Shown one piece after another: positions 10,635 to 18,003 of a stretch of 35,013 nucleotides of DNA. The translations under genes were made by a program, and so were the position numbers. The notes under the pieces are model-generated. The model had not been told where the DNA came from. It worked only from the letters and a program-made list of their open reading frames with translations, and made no database searches. Within the stretch, counting starts at the first letter, position 1. Every line of letters begins with the position of its first letter. The DNA is from Anaerolineales bacterium (GTDB lineage Bacteria; Chloroflexota; Anaerolineae; Anaerolineales; UBA6668): positions 1 through 35,013 of the forward strand of contig JAHDIM010000016.1 in NCBI GenBank assembly GCA_020630805.1, written 5' to 3'.

Positions 10635-11396
10635 CTAGTGGTTGAGAATTTGAGAGAGGAACAGCTTGGTGCGTTCTTCTTTCGGGTTTGTAAAGAAGTT
10701 TGCTGGCGTATTCTCTTCCACAATTTTGCCTTCGTCGAAGAACAAAATGCGGTCTGCTACAGACTGCGCAAAGCCCATTTCGTGGGTTACCGCCATAATG
10801 GTATAGCCTTGGCGGGCCAAGTCTCGCATTACGTCAAGCACTTCCTTAATCATTTCAGGATCAAGCGCCGAGGTTGGTTCGTCGAACAACAGGATCTTTG
10901 GTTCCATTGCTAGCGCACGGGCAATCGCCACACGTTGCTGCTGCCCACCAGACAATTGACCAGGATATTTTTGTGCTTGTTCTGGAATACCGACGCGGTC
11001 TAGCCAGCGCATGGCAACTTCTTCGGCTTTTTCACGTGACCACTTCCGCACATTGATCGGTGCCAAGGTGACGTTGTCAATTACGGTCAGGTGTGGGAAC
11101 AAGTTGAACTGTTGGAACACCATCCCCACTTCGCGCCGAATTTCTTGAATGTTGCGAATGTCGTGGGTGAGTTCGGTGCCATCGACAACAATTTGACCTT
11201 GTTGGTGTTCTTCCAAACGATTGATACAGCGAATAAACGTTGATTTCCCAGACCCAGATGGTCCCAGAATAACAATCACTTCCCCTTCACGCACTGTCAC
11301 GTCAATGCCTTTCAATACGTGGAAGTCTCCGTACCATTTGTTGACGTCTTTACATACGACCATTTCTGGTCCGAGTTCTTTTTCTGCTACTGTCAT
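10635..11396 (-). CDS. aapP: Amino-acid ABC transporter ATP-binding protein
   Basis: This ATPase powers the Aap polar amino-acid importer. The 253-residue protein has every ABC motif: Walker [10 protein letters not shown], the Q-loop in [13 protein letters not shown], the signature LSGGQQQR, Walker [13 protein letters not shown] and the switch histidine in [10 protein letters not shown]. It closely follows the GlnQ/AapP (PAAT) subfamily pattern. An AGGAG sequence precedes the ATG. It is the last gene of the aapQ-aapM-aapP unit, 104 bases after aapM; that gap contains an inverted heptamer-repeat cluster. A strong hairpin follows the gene. Confidence 0.95.
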
Positions 11397-11500: not shown

Positions 11501-13642
11501 CTATCGTTCTCCAACGCCTAACTGTGCTTCGAGGCGTCGGCTATATCCTGCCATGACGGCGCTACCGAAGAAGAAGATTACTGCAAGTAGCAGGTATGGT
11601 TCGGTACGCACGTTAATCCAGTCTGGCTGACCACTAATGTTATTGGCAACCGCCAACAAGTCAAACAGACCAACCAAGAATACAAGGGATGTATCTTTGA
11701 ACAACCCGATGAATTGCCCCACAATCGCTGGAATTACAGCGCGTAGCGCTTGGGGCATAATGATATATGCATATTTTTGGAAACCGCTCAGCCCGACAGC
11801 ATCTGCGGCTTCATATTGACCTTTGCTGAGTGCTTGCAGCCCACCACGCACATTTTCTGCCAAATATGCGGCAGAGAAGAACGTAAACCCAGCCATTACC
11901 CGCCAAGTCTGATTGATTTCAGTTCCAGGTGGCAAGAATAGTGGCACGAAAATGATCGCGAAGAAAATGATCGTAATCATCGGAACGCCACGCACCATTT
12001 CGATAAACATGGTGCTGAATGCTGCAAGAACGTTTCCATCAAAGGCGCGCTGTAGCGCAAACGCCAGCAAAATGATAATGATTGGCCAGAATGCCAACAC
12101 ACTCTCAAACCAATTACGCGATGTTGCCAATAGGCCGGGAGTCGACGTGGCGAAGAACCAGATTGCAGCCAACCCCGCTAATGGATAGGTAATCCACCAA
12201 GGAACACCATTGATTTCACTACGACGTCCCATGGCAAGCAAAATCCCCATTGGGAATGACACCACAATCGCAAACAACGCAATGATCACACTCAAGAGCA
12301 ATCCACCCCAGGTTTGGTCTGGGTCTACAACTTCAATTGCTTCATAATCAATGAAGAAAATTGCTTGGGCAATTTCTGGCGTGAATTGGCGTAACGCTAA
12401 CACGAACAGCCAAGCCAAGATTAGCCAGCCGCCATTCCCAAGCTTGAATTCTGGGCGCGGCCCACCTCTGAAAAGCGGCAAGACAAAATTGTAGAGAAGC
12501 AACAAGCCAAATACTGCGTGCCCAAAGATCACAAGCCCTGTCGTAACGTTGATGCTCGCCAACAGACCCATGCCTGCACCTTGAAGCAGACCACGCAACG
12601 CAATTGAAAATAGCGGTGCAATCAGCAGCCCAAAGATCAACCAACCACTGACAATCCAACCGAGTAAGGTTACATTGATTGTTTGTCGGCGATATAGCAC
12701 GATGTAAAGCGTCACAAATAACATAATCGCGCCAGCAATGATGTTAATCATTCCGGACATCGTTGAACCCAGCAGCAGCTTCCAAATCACAAACGGCGAT
12801 AACAGCCATAGGTAATTCATGAGCAGACGCCAGATTGACAGTTGCTGCGAATTTTGACCAGGGACATAAATTTCGGTAACGTCATCGTCTGGGATGACTT
12901 CTGGATCTAACACGCGGGTGACCAGAACCGAGAAGACCGCCAGCACGGCAATAATTGCCAGCGCAGTCCACAAGCGTGGCGAGTATTCTTTGAACCGGAA
13001 GACCATCAGGTTCGCAAAATTGTCACGCACTGCACCCCAGTTTGCCCCCGCTTCATCGCCGAACAGGTTACGCCCTAAGTAGACATACTCTTCACTTCGG
13101 ATCACGACATCAGGATTGGCGCTGTCGATCTTGTACTTGTATTCGCGAATATCTGTGCCAAGACCGTTTTGCTCAAATGGAATACTGACGCTTTCGCCAG
13201 CTTCCAAAAGTGCCAAGTCTACGCCTTCAACATTGAACTCTTCAACAGGAATTCGTTCGTCAATACCAAGGGGAACATCTGTCCAAGATGCCCGTACAAC
13301 GCCATAATTCCAAAACTGAATGATGATCGCTGACAACATGAGCACAATTAGCAATGACACCAACACATTGGTGACAGAGTTGTACATGTTTTCTTTCAGC
13401 CAATATGTACGCGAATTATGGTTACGATTCAGATCCGCATTGATCATCCAGCCCAGTGTCCCGAGCCAAATAAGCAAAATAACAATGGTCGCAATTGGCG
13501 CAATAGCCAACCGATTAATGGCAAACCTGAAGGTAACGTACGCTAAGAACGCAAGCCAAACTGGTAAGAACCAATTGCTAAAGAAATATTCTCGGACAAA
13601 CATGCCGAGATCAAAACGACGTGGTGGTTTAGTAACAGTCAT
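11501..13642 (-). CDS. aapM: Amino-acid ABC transporter permease, AapM type, enlarged
   Basis: This is one of two permease subunits of the Aap importer. The C-terminal ~250 residues form the transport domain, with EMVRGVPMITIIFF and the EAA loop NVRGGLQALSKGQYEAADAVG followed by PQALRAVIP, which contacts AapP. The protein is 713 residues, whereas family members I know are roughly 350-400. The extra part lies in the N-terminal two thirds: a soluble loop of about 110 residues (roughly 115-225, acidic, predicted outside) and several additional hydrophobic segments between about 270 and 395. The segment TYWLKENMYNSVTNVL at about 79-94 matches the start of normal AapM proteins. An AAGGAG sequence precedes the ATG, and the gene begins 12 bases after aapQ. 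Confidence 0.9.
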   Translation of the reverse strand: MTVTKPPRRFDLGMFVREYFFSNWFLPVWLAFLAYVTFRFAINRLAIAPIATIVILLIWLGTLGWMINADLNRNHNSRTYWLKENMYNSVTNVLVSLLIVLMLSAIIIQFWNYGVVRASWTDVPLGIDERIPVEEFNVEGVDLALLEAGESVSIPFEQNGLGTDIREYKYKIDSANPDVVIRSEEYVYLGRNLFGDEAGANWGAVRDNFANLMVFRFKEYSPRLWTALAIIAVLAVFSVLVTRVLDPEVIPDDDVTEIYVPGQNSQQLSIWRLLMNYLWLLSPFVIWKLLLGSTMSGMINIIAGAIMLFVTLYIVLYRRQTINVTLLGWIVSGWLIFGLLIAPLFSIALRGLLQGAGMGLLASINVTTGLVIFGHAVFGLLLLYNFVLPLFRGGPRPEFKLGNGGWLILAWLFVLALRQFTPEIAQAIFFIDYEAIEVVDPDQTWGGLLLSVIIALFAIVVSFPMGILLAMGRRSEINGVPWWITYPLAGLAAIWFFATSTPGLLATSRNWFESVLAFWPIIIILLAFALQRAFDGNVLAAFSTMFIEMVRGVPMITIIFFAIIFVPLFLPPGTEINQTWRVMAGFTFFSAAYLAENVRGGLQALSKGQYEAADAVGLSGFQKYAYIIMPQALRAVIPAIVGQFIGLFKDTSLVFLVGLFDLLAVANNISGQPDWINVRTEPYLLLAVIFFFGSAVMAGYSRRLEAQLGVGER

Positions 13643-13654
13643 TTCTAGTCTCCT

Positions 13655-15280
13655 TTAGCGCTCGACCAACTTCACGCGTTGGTTGTACCAGTTCAAGAAC
13701 GCAGAAATAATTAGGCTCAGGGTGAGGTAGAACAGCATTGTCAACAACATCCCTTGCATCGCGCGGCCCGATTGGTTGATGGTCGTAAAGATCACCGTCC
13801 AGAAGTCTGGGAACGCCACAATCTGCGCCAGAGTCGAGTTCTTCGCTAGGTTGAGATAACTACTCGTAAGCGGCGGGATAATGACCCGCAGCGCTTGTGG
13901 TAGCACAACTAAGCGTAAGCGTTGGCCCTCCGTCAGCCCAATAGCACGAGCAGCTTCTGTCTGCCCTTTTGAAACCGCTTGGATACCCGCACGGACAATT
14001 TCACCAACACTGGCACCAGTGTTGAGCACGAGACCAATCAGAATTGCAGCGAACTCTGGGGTCATCTTGCCGCCGCCAGCGAAGTTCAAGCCTTCCAATT
14101 TTGCGAGAGAAAGCCGCAGTGGCCGTTCCGGGATACCAACAATTGAGAAAGAACTTCCGTCTTCAAGCGTTGCGCTCATTTCGTTGATAAAGCCTTGCTC
14201 TGCAACTAACAAATCACATTTTCCAGCAGCATAGTCTTGGAACGCTTTGTCAGCATCTTTCACGCGTGAAATACTGTATGGGATGCCTAACGCGCGCAAT
14301 TCAGAATCAATGTTGGCAGCCTCTAAAGATTGTCGCTCAGCACAAACATTGAGACGCGAGTCTTTATATGTTTTCTGATCAATATCACCAGCGTCAACCA
14401 GGGCCTGAATGCCTGCTAAATCGGCGATGTCGACCTCAAAGCGTTCAGCCACAACCTGTGGAATATTTTCGAGACCGGTAACTCCGCTCGCATTATTGAC
14501 CAACATCACTTGGTTTCCGGCTGCTGACGCATTGGCGACAAACCAACCTACAACAGTCAAGAGTACCAATGCAATTGGGGCCCAGATGCCACGGTTTGTT
14601 GTTCCGCCTAAGCGCTCTTCACGCCGCCCCAAAATGATCCAAATTGCATATGCCAACACGAGGCCAATCCCAATAAAAATGGCCAGAACTTGAAAAGACA
14701 CAGTTGGAACAAGTGACGGGTAGTTAATGCCCCGATTGCTCAGAAAAACAAAGTTACTGTTTTCAGCAGCCTCTTTGATACTGGGAAGCGCTAAGAAGAA
14801 AGAGAAATAGATGAAGACCAATTGCAATACAAGCGGCGTATTGCGGAAAAGGTCAACATACCACTTAGATACATTGGCAACTAACCAATTCTTAGAAAGT
14901 CGCGCAATCCCAACAAGTGTCCCAAGAATGGTGGTGAGAATACAGCCAATAATGGTGACGCGAATTGTATTTACCGCAGCTACACCAATTGCACGCCAAT
15001 ACGAGTTGCTATTGTCATAAGACATCCCAAAGGATGTTTCAGCAACGTCAAATTGAGCCGCAGAGTCCATAAAGTCATATGCACAGCGGTAAGCGACAGT
15101 CCCATCTTCACAAATGAACTGCGCCTCACCCAGCGACTCTAGATTTCCAGCAACATTGCCTATAAACCAAGAGAATGTCAGCGCCACAACAATCGCGCCA
15201 ACAATTTGTGCAATAACCCCTAATACGCGAATATCAAATAATTTCGCAAATATATTAGAAATACCTGAATTACTTTCCAT
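13655..15280 (-). CDS. aapQ: Amino-acid ABC transporter permease, AapQ type, with a binding-protein-like insert
   Basis: This is the other permease subunit. Numbered from an upstream TTG at 15292, the C-terminal transport domain (about 405-540) has the EAA loop EIVRAGIQAVSKGQTEAARAIG and PQALRVIIP; DLFRNTPLVLQLVF (147-160) is the typical N-terminal permease motif. Normal AapQ proteins pass from a hydrophobic helix almost directly to a GFNFxGG segment. Here about 140 residues (257-400) intervene between the helix ending FVANASA and GLNFAGG. Part of this insert resembles AapJ: QVMLVNNASGVTGLENI here against QGMMVRADSGIASLEDM in AapJ, then the VC...RALGIPY...AAGKCDLLV pattern. I take the ATG at 15280 as the start; the TTG at 15292 is an alternative. 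A separate promoter lies about 145 bases upstream. Confidence 0.92.
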   Translation of the reverse strand: MESNSGISNIFAKLFDIRVLGVIAQIVGAIVVALTFSWFIGNVAGNLESLGEAQFICEDGTVAYRCAYDFMDSAAQFDVAETSFGMSYDNSNSYWRAIGVAAVNTIRVTIIGCILTTILGTLVGIARLSKNWLVANVSKWYVDLFRNTPLVLQLVFIYFSFFLALPSIKEAAENSNFVFLSNRGINYPSLVPTVSFQVLAIFIGIGLVLAYAIWIILGRREERLGGTTNRGIWAPIALVLLTVVGWFVANASAAGNQVMLVNNASGVTGLENIPQVVAERFEVDIADLAGIQALVDAGDIDQKTYKDSRLNVCAERQSLEAANIDSELRALGIPYSISRVKDADKAFQDYAAGKCDLLVAEQGFINEMSATLEDGSSFSIVGIPERPLRLSLAKLEGLNFAGGGKMTPEFAAILIGLVLNTGASVGEIVRAGIQAVSKGQTEAARAIGLTEGQRLRLVVLPQALRVIIPPLTSSYLNLAKNSTLAQIVAFPDFWTVIFTTINQSGRAMQGMLLTMLFYLTLSLIISAFLNWYNQRVKLVER

Positions 15281-15292
15281 AGGCAACAACAA

Positions 15293-15654: not shown

Positions 15655-16878
15655 TTAGCGGAATGGTGGAGCGTAGATCAAACCACCATCGTAGTATTGG
15701 GCGTTAGGACCACGGCCAAGACCCAATGGAGTGTCTGGACCCAAGTTGCGGTCGTAAATTTCGCCGTAGTTACCAACTTGTGTGATGACTTGGTAGCAGA
15801 AGTCGTTTGCAAGACCCAATGCTTGAGCCAATTCACCTTCAACACCCAACAGGTTCAAGTGACCTGGGTTGTCGCTGGTCAAGAAGTCATCTACGTTAGC
15901 GGAGGTGATACCGAATTCTTCAGCTTGGATGGTGCAGTTCACAACCCACATCACGATGTCGCCCCAGTTGTTGTCGCCGTGGCGGGTAACTGGACCGAGT
16001 GGTTCCTTAGACATGGTTTCGTCCAAGATCATGTGTGCATCGCCGTCGCTCAATGAGGTTGCCTTGATTGAAGCCAAACCTGACTTGTCAGTGGTCAAAC
16101 CGTCACATGAACCTTCGTCGTATGCTGCGGTGGTTGATGGATTGTCTGGGAAGACCTTAGCTTCATAGGTGATGCCCTTAGCGCGGAATACATCAGCCAA
16201 GTTCTTTTCAGTGGTGGTACCAGCTTGCACACAAACTGTACCGCCTTCCATGTCTTCCAAGCTAGCGATGCCGCTGTCAGCGCGGACCATCATACCTTGA
16301 CCGTCAAAGAAGGTGGTTGGTGCAAAGTCAAAACCAAGGCTGGTGTCACGGCTGATCGTCCAGGTCGTGTTACGGATCAGAACGTCAACTTCACCACTTT
16401 GCAGGGTTGGGAAGCGGGTGGTACCGGTGGTTGGGGTGATTTCAATAGCTGAAGCGTCGCCCAAAACTGCTGCTGCGACTGCGCCACAGTAATCTACGTC
16501 GAAACCGCTAAATTCGTTGGTGTCTGGATCCAAGAAACCGAAACCTGGCAAGTTAGCGTTACCGCCACACTTCAAGGTACCGCGAGCTTGAACAGCTGCC
16601 AATGTGTCGCCACCACCTTCAAAGGTAACAGCTACTGGGTCTGCATCTGCTGCTGCGGTAGCTGCGTCTGCAGCTGCTGCAACTGCGTCTGCTGCTTCTG
16701 CTTTTGCTGCTTCGATCATGCCGTTAGCTTCTTCAACTTGGGCTTGAGCAGCTTCCAATTGACCTTGTAGGTCAGCAACTTGTGCTTGCAATTCTGCTGC
16801 AGCGCCACCGCCACAAGCAGTTAGGACGACTGCAAATGCTGCAGCGACCATAACAAAAAGAATTGACTTGCGATTCAT
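15655..16878 (-). CDS. aapJ: Amino-acid ABC transporter substrate-binding lipoprotein
   Basis: This captures polar amino acids outside the membrane and delivers them to AapQM. The 407-residue protein has a signal peptide with lipobox LTAC (Cys22). Residues 26-80 are an Ala/Gln/Glu-rich heptad region (ELQAQVADLQGQLEAAQ, then AADAVAAAADAATAAA), a predicted coiled-coil spacer not usual for AapJ. Residues 90-390 are the type 3 binding domain: GTLKCGGNANLPGFGF, GFDVDYCGAVAAAVLG, the ligand segment VLIRNTTWTISRD, and the C-terminal IYDRNLGPDTPLGLGRGPNAQ that typifies AapJ. A strong GGAGGAG sequence precedes the ATG and a good promoter lies at 16964-16992, so high expression is expected. Its own terminator follows before aapQ. 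Confidence 0.95.
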   Translation of the reverse strand: MNRKSILFVMVAAAFAVVLTACGGGAAAELQAQVADLQGQLEAAQAQVEEANGMIEAAKAEAADAVAAAADAATAAADADPVAVTFEGGGDTLAAVQARGTLKCGGNANLPGFGFLDPDTNEFSGFDVDYCGAVAAAVLGDASAIEITPTTGTTRFPTLQSGEVDVLIRNTTWTISRDTSLGFDFAPTTFFDGQGMMVRADSGIASLEDMEGGTVCVQAGTTTEKNLADVFRAKGITYEAKVFPDNPSTTAAYDEGSCDGLTTDKSGLASIKATSLSDGDAHMILDETMSKEPLGPVTRHGDNNWGDIVMWVVNCTIQAEEFGITSANVDDFLTSDNPGHLNLLGVEGELAQALGLANDFCYQVITQVGNYGEIYDRNLGPDTPLGLGRGPNAQYYDGGLIYAPPFR

Positions 16879-17037: not shown

Positions 17038-18003
17038 TCAATTCGCAATTTCTTCCGCAACTGGAAGCGGATTCGACGAATTTGCCCCTAAATTACGCTC
17101 ATATATATCGGTATATGTCCCAATCTTAGAGATTATGGTGCTACACGTCGTTTCAGTAAGACCAACGTTAGAAAAGTCAATTTCGGCATCTGGCTGATTT
17201 AAACAGTCAATGACAGCATTTACCAGCTCGATCCAATTGGGGTCTACTGTCCACACAATTGGCCCAACAGGTTGCAGGTCAAAGGTTAGGGGCAAGACGC
17301 GGCTAGGCCTGTCTGAGGACATTTGTCGCCGAGCCTCAATTAGCATCGGTCTTGGCAAGATCAACGCTTGACACTCACCTTGGTTGTAACGCTCATATAG
17401 ACGTGGCCAAGCAGGTTCATATTCAAGATCTAAGTCCTGATCTCCAGCCGCAACAAAGAGCGGATCAAGCTGAGGTTCAAAATCACCAATCGGCAACGCA
17501 CACGTTGGCACATCATGAAGACTATGCCAACCGGCAAAATCATCAGCGACAAGCAGTCCTGCGCCTGTCGTATAGGTCGCCTTGGCATACCCCAGGTTTG
17601 GATTTTCAATGCCAAGCTGTGGGCGTGGCGAATGCATCACCACGTCCACCGTATTTGCCTCTAAAGCAGCGGACACCTCAGCCATGACAAAGCCGTCAAA
17701 TACGGTCGCGTCTACATTGTCAAAAATTGCGACTGCTAGGGCTCGACAAATATCCATATCAAGCCCCGCATAGGTTCCGTTGTAGTCAATATGTGCAAAT
17801 CCTGGGTAGTCCAAATAGACCCCACAGCGCACCGCTCCGTTGGTTTGAATTTCCTCTAGCTTCGTTTCTGGAACAACAGGTGTTGCAGTTTTAGTCGCTG
17901 GAATCTCAGTCGGAACGCTTTGCTCTGGCACCGTACAGGCCAGCAAACTAAACACAAAGCCAGACAGTGCAACTGTCCGAAGCCACCACAATTTTTGAGC
18001 CAT
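17038..18003 (-). CDS. Diverged AapJ-like substrate-binding lipoprotein
   Basis: This 321-residue lipoprotein has lipobox LLAC near residue 23, followed by a Pro/Thr-rich linker. It is a paralogue of AapJ: GAVRCGVYLDYPGFAHID matches GTLKCGGNANLPGFGFLD, GLDMDICRALAVAIF matches GFDVDYCGAVAAAVL, and the end IGTYTDIYERNLGANS matches VGNYGEIYDRNLGPDT. The ligand-contact segment differs: AapJ has VLIRNTTWTISRD, while this protein has VVMHSPRPQLGIE. It should therefore bind a different ligand or none. It follows nadD by 5 bases, so it is the third gene of an obg-nadD unit, with no permease genes attached. It might share AapQMP, sense a ligand, or be decaying. The fold is sure; the role is not. Confidence 0.85.
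   Translation of the reverse strand: MAQKLWWLRTVALSGFVFSLLACTVPEQSVPTEIPATKTATPVVPETKLEEIQTNGAVRCGVYLDYPGFAHIDYNGTYAGLDMDICRALAVAIFDNVDATVFDGFVMAEVSAALEANTVDVVMHSPRPQLGIENPNLGYAKATYTTGAGLLVADDFAGWHSLHDVPTCALPIGDFEPQLDPLFVAAGDQDLDLEYEPAWPRLYERYNQGECQALILPRPMLIEARRQMSSDRPSRVLPLTFDLQPVGPIVWTVDPNWIELVNAVIDCLNQPDAEIDFSNVGLTETTCSTIISKIGTYTDIYERNLGANSSNPLPVAEEIAN

Follow-up and report, generated by a model that had tools for sequence, protein, structure and literature searches.

The analysed window, a stretch of 35,013 nucleotides from an Anaerolineales contig, carries on its minus strand a set of genes consisting of a divergent substrate-binding protein (SBP) gene, aapJ, aapQ, aapM and an ATPase gene. 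The features relevant to the analysis are as follows.

10635-11396, minus strand: ATPase subunit of the AapP/GlnQ type
11501-13642, minus strand: AapM partner permease, enlarged (713 residues, compared with approximately 400 in AapQ non-carriers)
13655-15292, minus strand: AapQ permease subunit of an amino-acid importer, bearing the insert, with HEQRo_perm_3TM above cut-off
14093-14518, minus strand: the insert (AapQ residues 259-400), a domain resembling SBP lobe II, located in the extracytoplasmic loop that precedes the core helix towards the EAA motif
14216-14218, minus strand: Cys359, invariant in 32 inserts, as is the Cys of GSCDGLTTD with which it aligns in AapJ
14342-14344, minus strand: Cys317, invariant in 32 inserts, as is the Cys of VCVQAGTTTE with which it aligns in AapJ
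14357-14461, minus strand: extra helical segment of the lobe (approximately residues 278-312, some 35 residues), with no counterpart in AapJ or in the short insert of G003
15655-16878, minus strand: AapJ, a complete substrate-binding lipoprotein whose lobe II (QGMMV to SKEPLG) is homologous to the insert

The open frame of AapQ encodes 545 residues from the TTG at 15292 and 541 residues from the ATG at 15280, which is the point where all relatives align. The protein belongs to the HEQRo/AapQ permeases: TIGR01726 (3TM domain) scores 56.1 bits against a cut-off of 42.2, and BPD_transp_1 (EAA core) scores 59.9 bits against 26.4. AapQ/BztB-type permeases (HEQRo 3TM) share with it all permease features and the operon order J-Q-M-P. 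However, ordinary AapQ proteins of the Chloroflexota and of proteobacterial plasmids, which are approximately 395-435 residues long, have only a short loop at the site that the lobe occupies here. The matches of more than 100 related AapQ proteins without the insert end near residue 250 and restart near residue 383, and approximately 135 of the residues between FVANASA and GLNFAGG are extra in comparison with these relatives. The insertion noticed in the first-pass annotation is thus real, and its bounds move only slightly, from residues 257-400 to 259-400 (approximately 142 residues). For query residues 70-545, most of the best AapQ matches among the collected plasmids (mostly of Rhizobiales) cover no more than approximately 1,000 bases, which indicates that the plasmid AapQ proteins also lack the insert. 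In the N-terminal extracytoplasmic loop of AapQ, a Cys pair (ICEDG...YRC; window 15083-15112, minus strand) is present in most carriers and absent from L033.

In an alignment with the Art permease 4yms, AapQ residues 164 and 408 fall on its residues 77 and 82. One short loop of 4yms, on the side opposite the EAA loop, therefore holds two added helices in addition to the lobe in AapQ, which places the lobe outside. The lobe comes after the helix that follows the basic stretch GRREER, with a linker of a few residues only, and the two hinge strands that lead to lobe I in AapJ run into membrane helices in AapQ. The extra helical segment is located between the first strand of the lobe and the VC motif; the longest insert (207 residues, L161 of G1005) contains an Ala/Glu-rich expansion of this segment. 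A different enlargement is present outside the carrier clade at L099:2791-4524 (G620), where AapQ has approximately 200 extra residues of predicted membrane helices and no lobe; the AapM frame at this locus is 868 residues.

A comparison of insert and AapJ profiles confirms that the insert is a homologue of lobe II of AapJ-type binding proteins and that lobe I is absent. The alignment of a profile of 13 inserts with a profile of 23 AapJ proteins by hhalign gives a probability of 98.8% and E=7.5e-17, and the match covers AapJ 118-212 only, from hinge to hinge, as expected for the single lobe that had been proposed to lie in the extracytoplasmic loop of the permease. An HMM built from the 13 inserts matches every intact AapJ among frames on which it had not been trained, mostly with E values of 1e-15 to 1e-9, and the best PDB profile match, to the Brucella AapJ-like protein 4z9n (E=1e-8), is likewise restricted to lobe II. 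The two stretches that the first-pass annotation had paired with AapJ are correct (7 identities over 17) and collinear; the pairwise similarity is weak (25%; BLASTP E=5e-4 in a single comparison), whereas the profile matches are far beyond chance. The proposed correspondence with AapJ stands for the lobe-II part of the insert but not for the helical segment at residues 278-312, which has no AapJ counterpart.

The search against family profiles gave a divided result. Pfam SBP_bac_3 does not match the insert, but TIGR01096 (NCBIfam) matches the insert alone over profile positions 117-201 (E=4.8e-6) and matches 10 of the 13 inserts; the score of 26 bits falls below the family cut-off of 256, as expected because the insert is half a protein. 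The insert is therefore related to the SBP_bac_3/TIGR01096 proteins by homology and lobe-II topology and lacks their two-lobed clamshell. YfiR/HmsC (DUF4154) was considered as a source of the insert and rejected, since only two or three members match, at best with E 0.002-0.004. The insert profile has no good match (E 0.04) to the second, very divergent SBP_bac_3 gene upstream of aapJ (window 17038-18003, minus strand), which scores 24.2 bits with Pfam against a cut-off of 26.4 and also adjoins aapJ in G001 and G002.

The structural check agrees with the profiles. In the AlphaFold2 model of the insert, computed from thin alignments (4 rows, taken from the window and its related loci), the core folds as β-α-β-α-β; pLDDT is 48 overall and 65-80 in the core, which is the only part that carries weight. 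The model aligns to lobe II (residues 110-209) of the Glu/Asp-binding proteins 2vha/2ia4 with a VIA Z of 11.5 and 2.4-2.6 Å over 88-90 residues, and to the isolated domain 2 of TmArgBP (6gpm), likewise a lone lobe II, with Z 9.9. The weak pairwise similarity and the absence of a Pfam match are what a chance or convergent resemblance would produce, but an hhalign match of this significance, the recovery of every intact AapJ and the confinement of both PDB and structure matches to lobe II make such an origin scarcely credible.

The insert was read in 32 AapQ proteins from 7 families of the class, and an assembly artefact is ruled out by its presence in many genomes, long contigs included. Carriers were found in 10 of 400 genomes of the order, in 2 more in the phylum sample and in 35 of 396 genomes in the class sample. 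The carriers of the class sample cluster in families f20 and f135; the three samples overlap. In a tree of the 32 carrier AapQ proteins, with the insert removed, and non-carriers, the carriers alone form one clade (support 0.992). In the tree of lobes the inserts are monophyletic (support 0.904) and lie beside AapJ, not beside other SBP_bac_3 proteins of the same genomes; one AapJ lobe (J_L152), which was mis-cut, is placed outside the AapJ group. Against the AapJ lobe profile the inserts mostly reach 24-59 bits, compared with at most 24 for other SBPs. The simplest reading is that the lobe was acquired once, from an AapJ-type protein, and then retained. Insert length ranges from 114 to 207 residues, and the basal carrier G003, whose placement is weakly supported (0.447), has the shortest insert and lacks the helical segment.

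The positions that are conserved in the insert differ in kind from those that are lost. The two Cys residues and the Asn of TTTExN are present in 100% of the 32 inserts, as in 41 AapJ lobes, and the insert and lobe II of the AapJ/BztA-type polar amino acid binding proteins have in common the β-α-β-α-β lobe, the Cys pair, the hinge strands and a TExN...R...I.Y helix-strand motif. GTTTE and TTDKS, which carry the amino-acid contacts of AapJ lobe II, are invariant or nearly so in the 41 AapJ lobes and are lost in the 32 inserts, so that the lobe-II contact motifs of SBP_bac_3/TIGR01096 (GTT, TTD) are missing. The alignments show that the insert lobe has lost these ligand-contacting residues and has retained the predicted fold, the Cys pair and the hinge strands. 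Overall, the insert differs from AapJ/BztA proteins in the loss of lobe I and of the ligand residues, in being embedded in a permease and in its extra helical segment. The ligand gating that the first-pass annotation had envisaged is thus unlikely to operate through the canonical contacts.

The insert dN/dS is 0.03-0.13 in pairs of the window lineage, in which synonymous sites are saturated, 0.108 in the single unsaturated (least saturated) pair and 0.57 in the pair L097-L098. These values indicate that selection on the insert is purifying but weaker than in the permease core, and the insert evolves approximately 2-5 times faster than this core. Selection has kept the lobe in the clade despite the lost amino-acid contacts.

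In each of the 31 loci whose neighbourhood is visible, AapQ is adjoined by an AapJ that is complete and has every ligand residue of lobe II. The lobe is therefore not a substitute for AapJ, and the earlier suggestion of a replacement for half the binding protein is not supported. The predicted co-occurrence with a long AapM holds: AapM frames, measured from stop to stop in a set with a few outliers, are 498-774 residues in carriers of the AapQ insert and mostly 397-440 residues in non-carriers. AapM in the carrier clade is extended by an N-terminal region and, internally, by a helical insertion. A second SBP lobe in AapM was considered and rejected, since the insert profile matches no AapM and the extra parts consist of helices and, in the window lineage, a different loop. 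This loop of approximately 95 residues (RASWTDVPLG...NLMVFRF; window ~12998-13294, minus strand) is accompanied by several extra helices in the window-lineage AapM (713-720 residues) and has no Pfam or NCBIfam match.

The function of the lobe may be considered in light of these results. Trees and profiles show that a copy of an AapJ-type lobe II entered AapQ once, in an ancestor within this Chloroflexota class, at the extracytoplasmic loop directly preceding the core helix to the EAA motif; it was kept afterwards, while its contact residues were lost. From there the mechanism that we tentatively prefer, at somewhat less than even likelihood, proceeds as follows. The entry of the two hinge strands into membrane helices over a short linker would fix the lobe in a rigid position where the translocation path begins, its former cleft face presumably turned towards the membrane. 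The lobe, now ligand-blind, may then serve as a built-in platform for the docking and gating of the complete AapJ, in a role like that of the MalF P2 domain. The homology, the single origin and retention, the purifying selection, the intact AapJ in all visible loci, the loss of the ligand motifs beside fully conserved Cys, Asn and Cys, the location in an extracytoplasmic loop and the enlargement of AapM in the same clade are consistent with such a platform. Against it, a mirror-tree comparison with the permease tree removed gives no contact signal between insert and AapJ distances (partial r of -0.14 with lobe I and of -0.29 with lobe II), the insert evolves faster than the core, and the full-length AapQ model (pLDDT 42) is too poor to place the lobe. 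The same lack of co-variation would be expected if the lobe never touches AapJ and just stabilises an enlarged AapQ-AapM membrane assembly as a structural cap, and the helices gained by AapM in the same clade and the restriction of conserved positions to fold-core residues and the Cys pair agree with this; however, a simple cap needs no SBP lobe and the lobe lies on the extracytoplasmic, SBP-docking side, and this explanation is somewhat unlikely. The permease may also stand in the topological place of lobe I, with lobe II, hinged straight onto two membrane helices and its cleft face turned to the pathway, as a moving lid that would open and close the entrance in step with AapJ docking, which we regard as unlikely; half of the clamshell motion would then have been shifted into the membrane subunit.

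Direct homology to AapJ lobe II and the loss of ligand residues are also what would be expected of a mimic that competes with AapJ for the docking site and lowers idle ATPase activity until loaded AapJ displaces it, but the short linkers limit such movement; autoinhibition of this kind is decidedly unlikely. The faster evolution and the variation in length could suggest a decoration that is tolerated without function, an improbable explanation given that every sampled member of the clade, across 7 families, carries the lobe, that some of its residues are invariant and that its dN/dS is mostly much lower than 1. It is highly improbable that the lobe acts as a sensor or as a second binding site by taking up its own ligand, either alone or in a composite cleft formed together with the membrane domain: the topology suggests that the cleft face should point to the pathway entrance, but GTTTE and TTDKS are lost throughout, and of the TmArgBP domains only D1 binds arginine, which D2 in isolation does not (PMC7589609). 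The arginine-blind D2 fits a ligand-blind lone lobe. The isolated domain 2 of TmArgBP folds autonomously (PMC11328109); this domain is an engineered fragment, whereas the AapQ lobe is a natural fusion.

Importers in which whole SBPs are fused to the permease are known, e.g., OpuA (PMC11065425). GlnPQ and OpuA resemble AapQ in that the membrane subunit contains a domain derived from an SBP. However, in these systems the permease chain is fused to a complete, functional ligand-binding domain of two lobes, whereas AapQ has a ligand-blind single lobe inside a loop and a separate complete AapJ. The MalF P2 loop of the maltose importer is also a folded extracytoplasmic domain in a permease loop near the docking face and is not known to derive from a binding protein. 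MalF P2 contacts MalE; for the AapQ lobe, contact with AapJ is a proposal. In agreement with the first-pass annotation, which considered the arrangement new, no earlier description of a single SBP lobe inside a permease loop was found in the open-access literature searched. The AapQ lobe gives a familiar transporter family a built-in accessory part of a new kind, and it is evolutionarily stable. As a ligand-blind single lobe in a permease loop, it amounts to a natural experiment in what one half of an SBP can do at the docking face, and it bears on docking sensing and pathway gating in type I importers and on the reuse of SBP parts. Its single origin in a clear clade with insert-free sisters leaves its effect open to a test by removal.

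Several further features were observed in AapJ. An alanine-rich, coiled-coil-like spacer (window ~16645-16797, minus strand) lies between the lipobox and the binding domain, and a second AapJ paralogue is encoded on another contig of the same genome as the window (L110:149-1396, G000:C165). An extra C-terminal Cys pair at approximately residues 315 and 361 (within window 15655-16878, minus strand) is present in 84% of carriers and in 0 of the 10 non-carriers compared.
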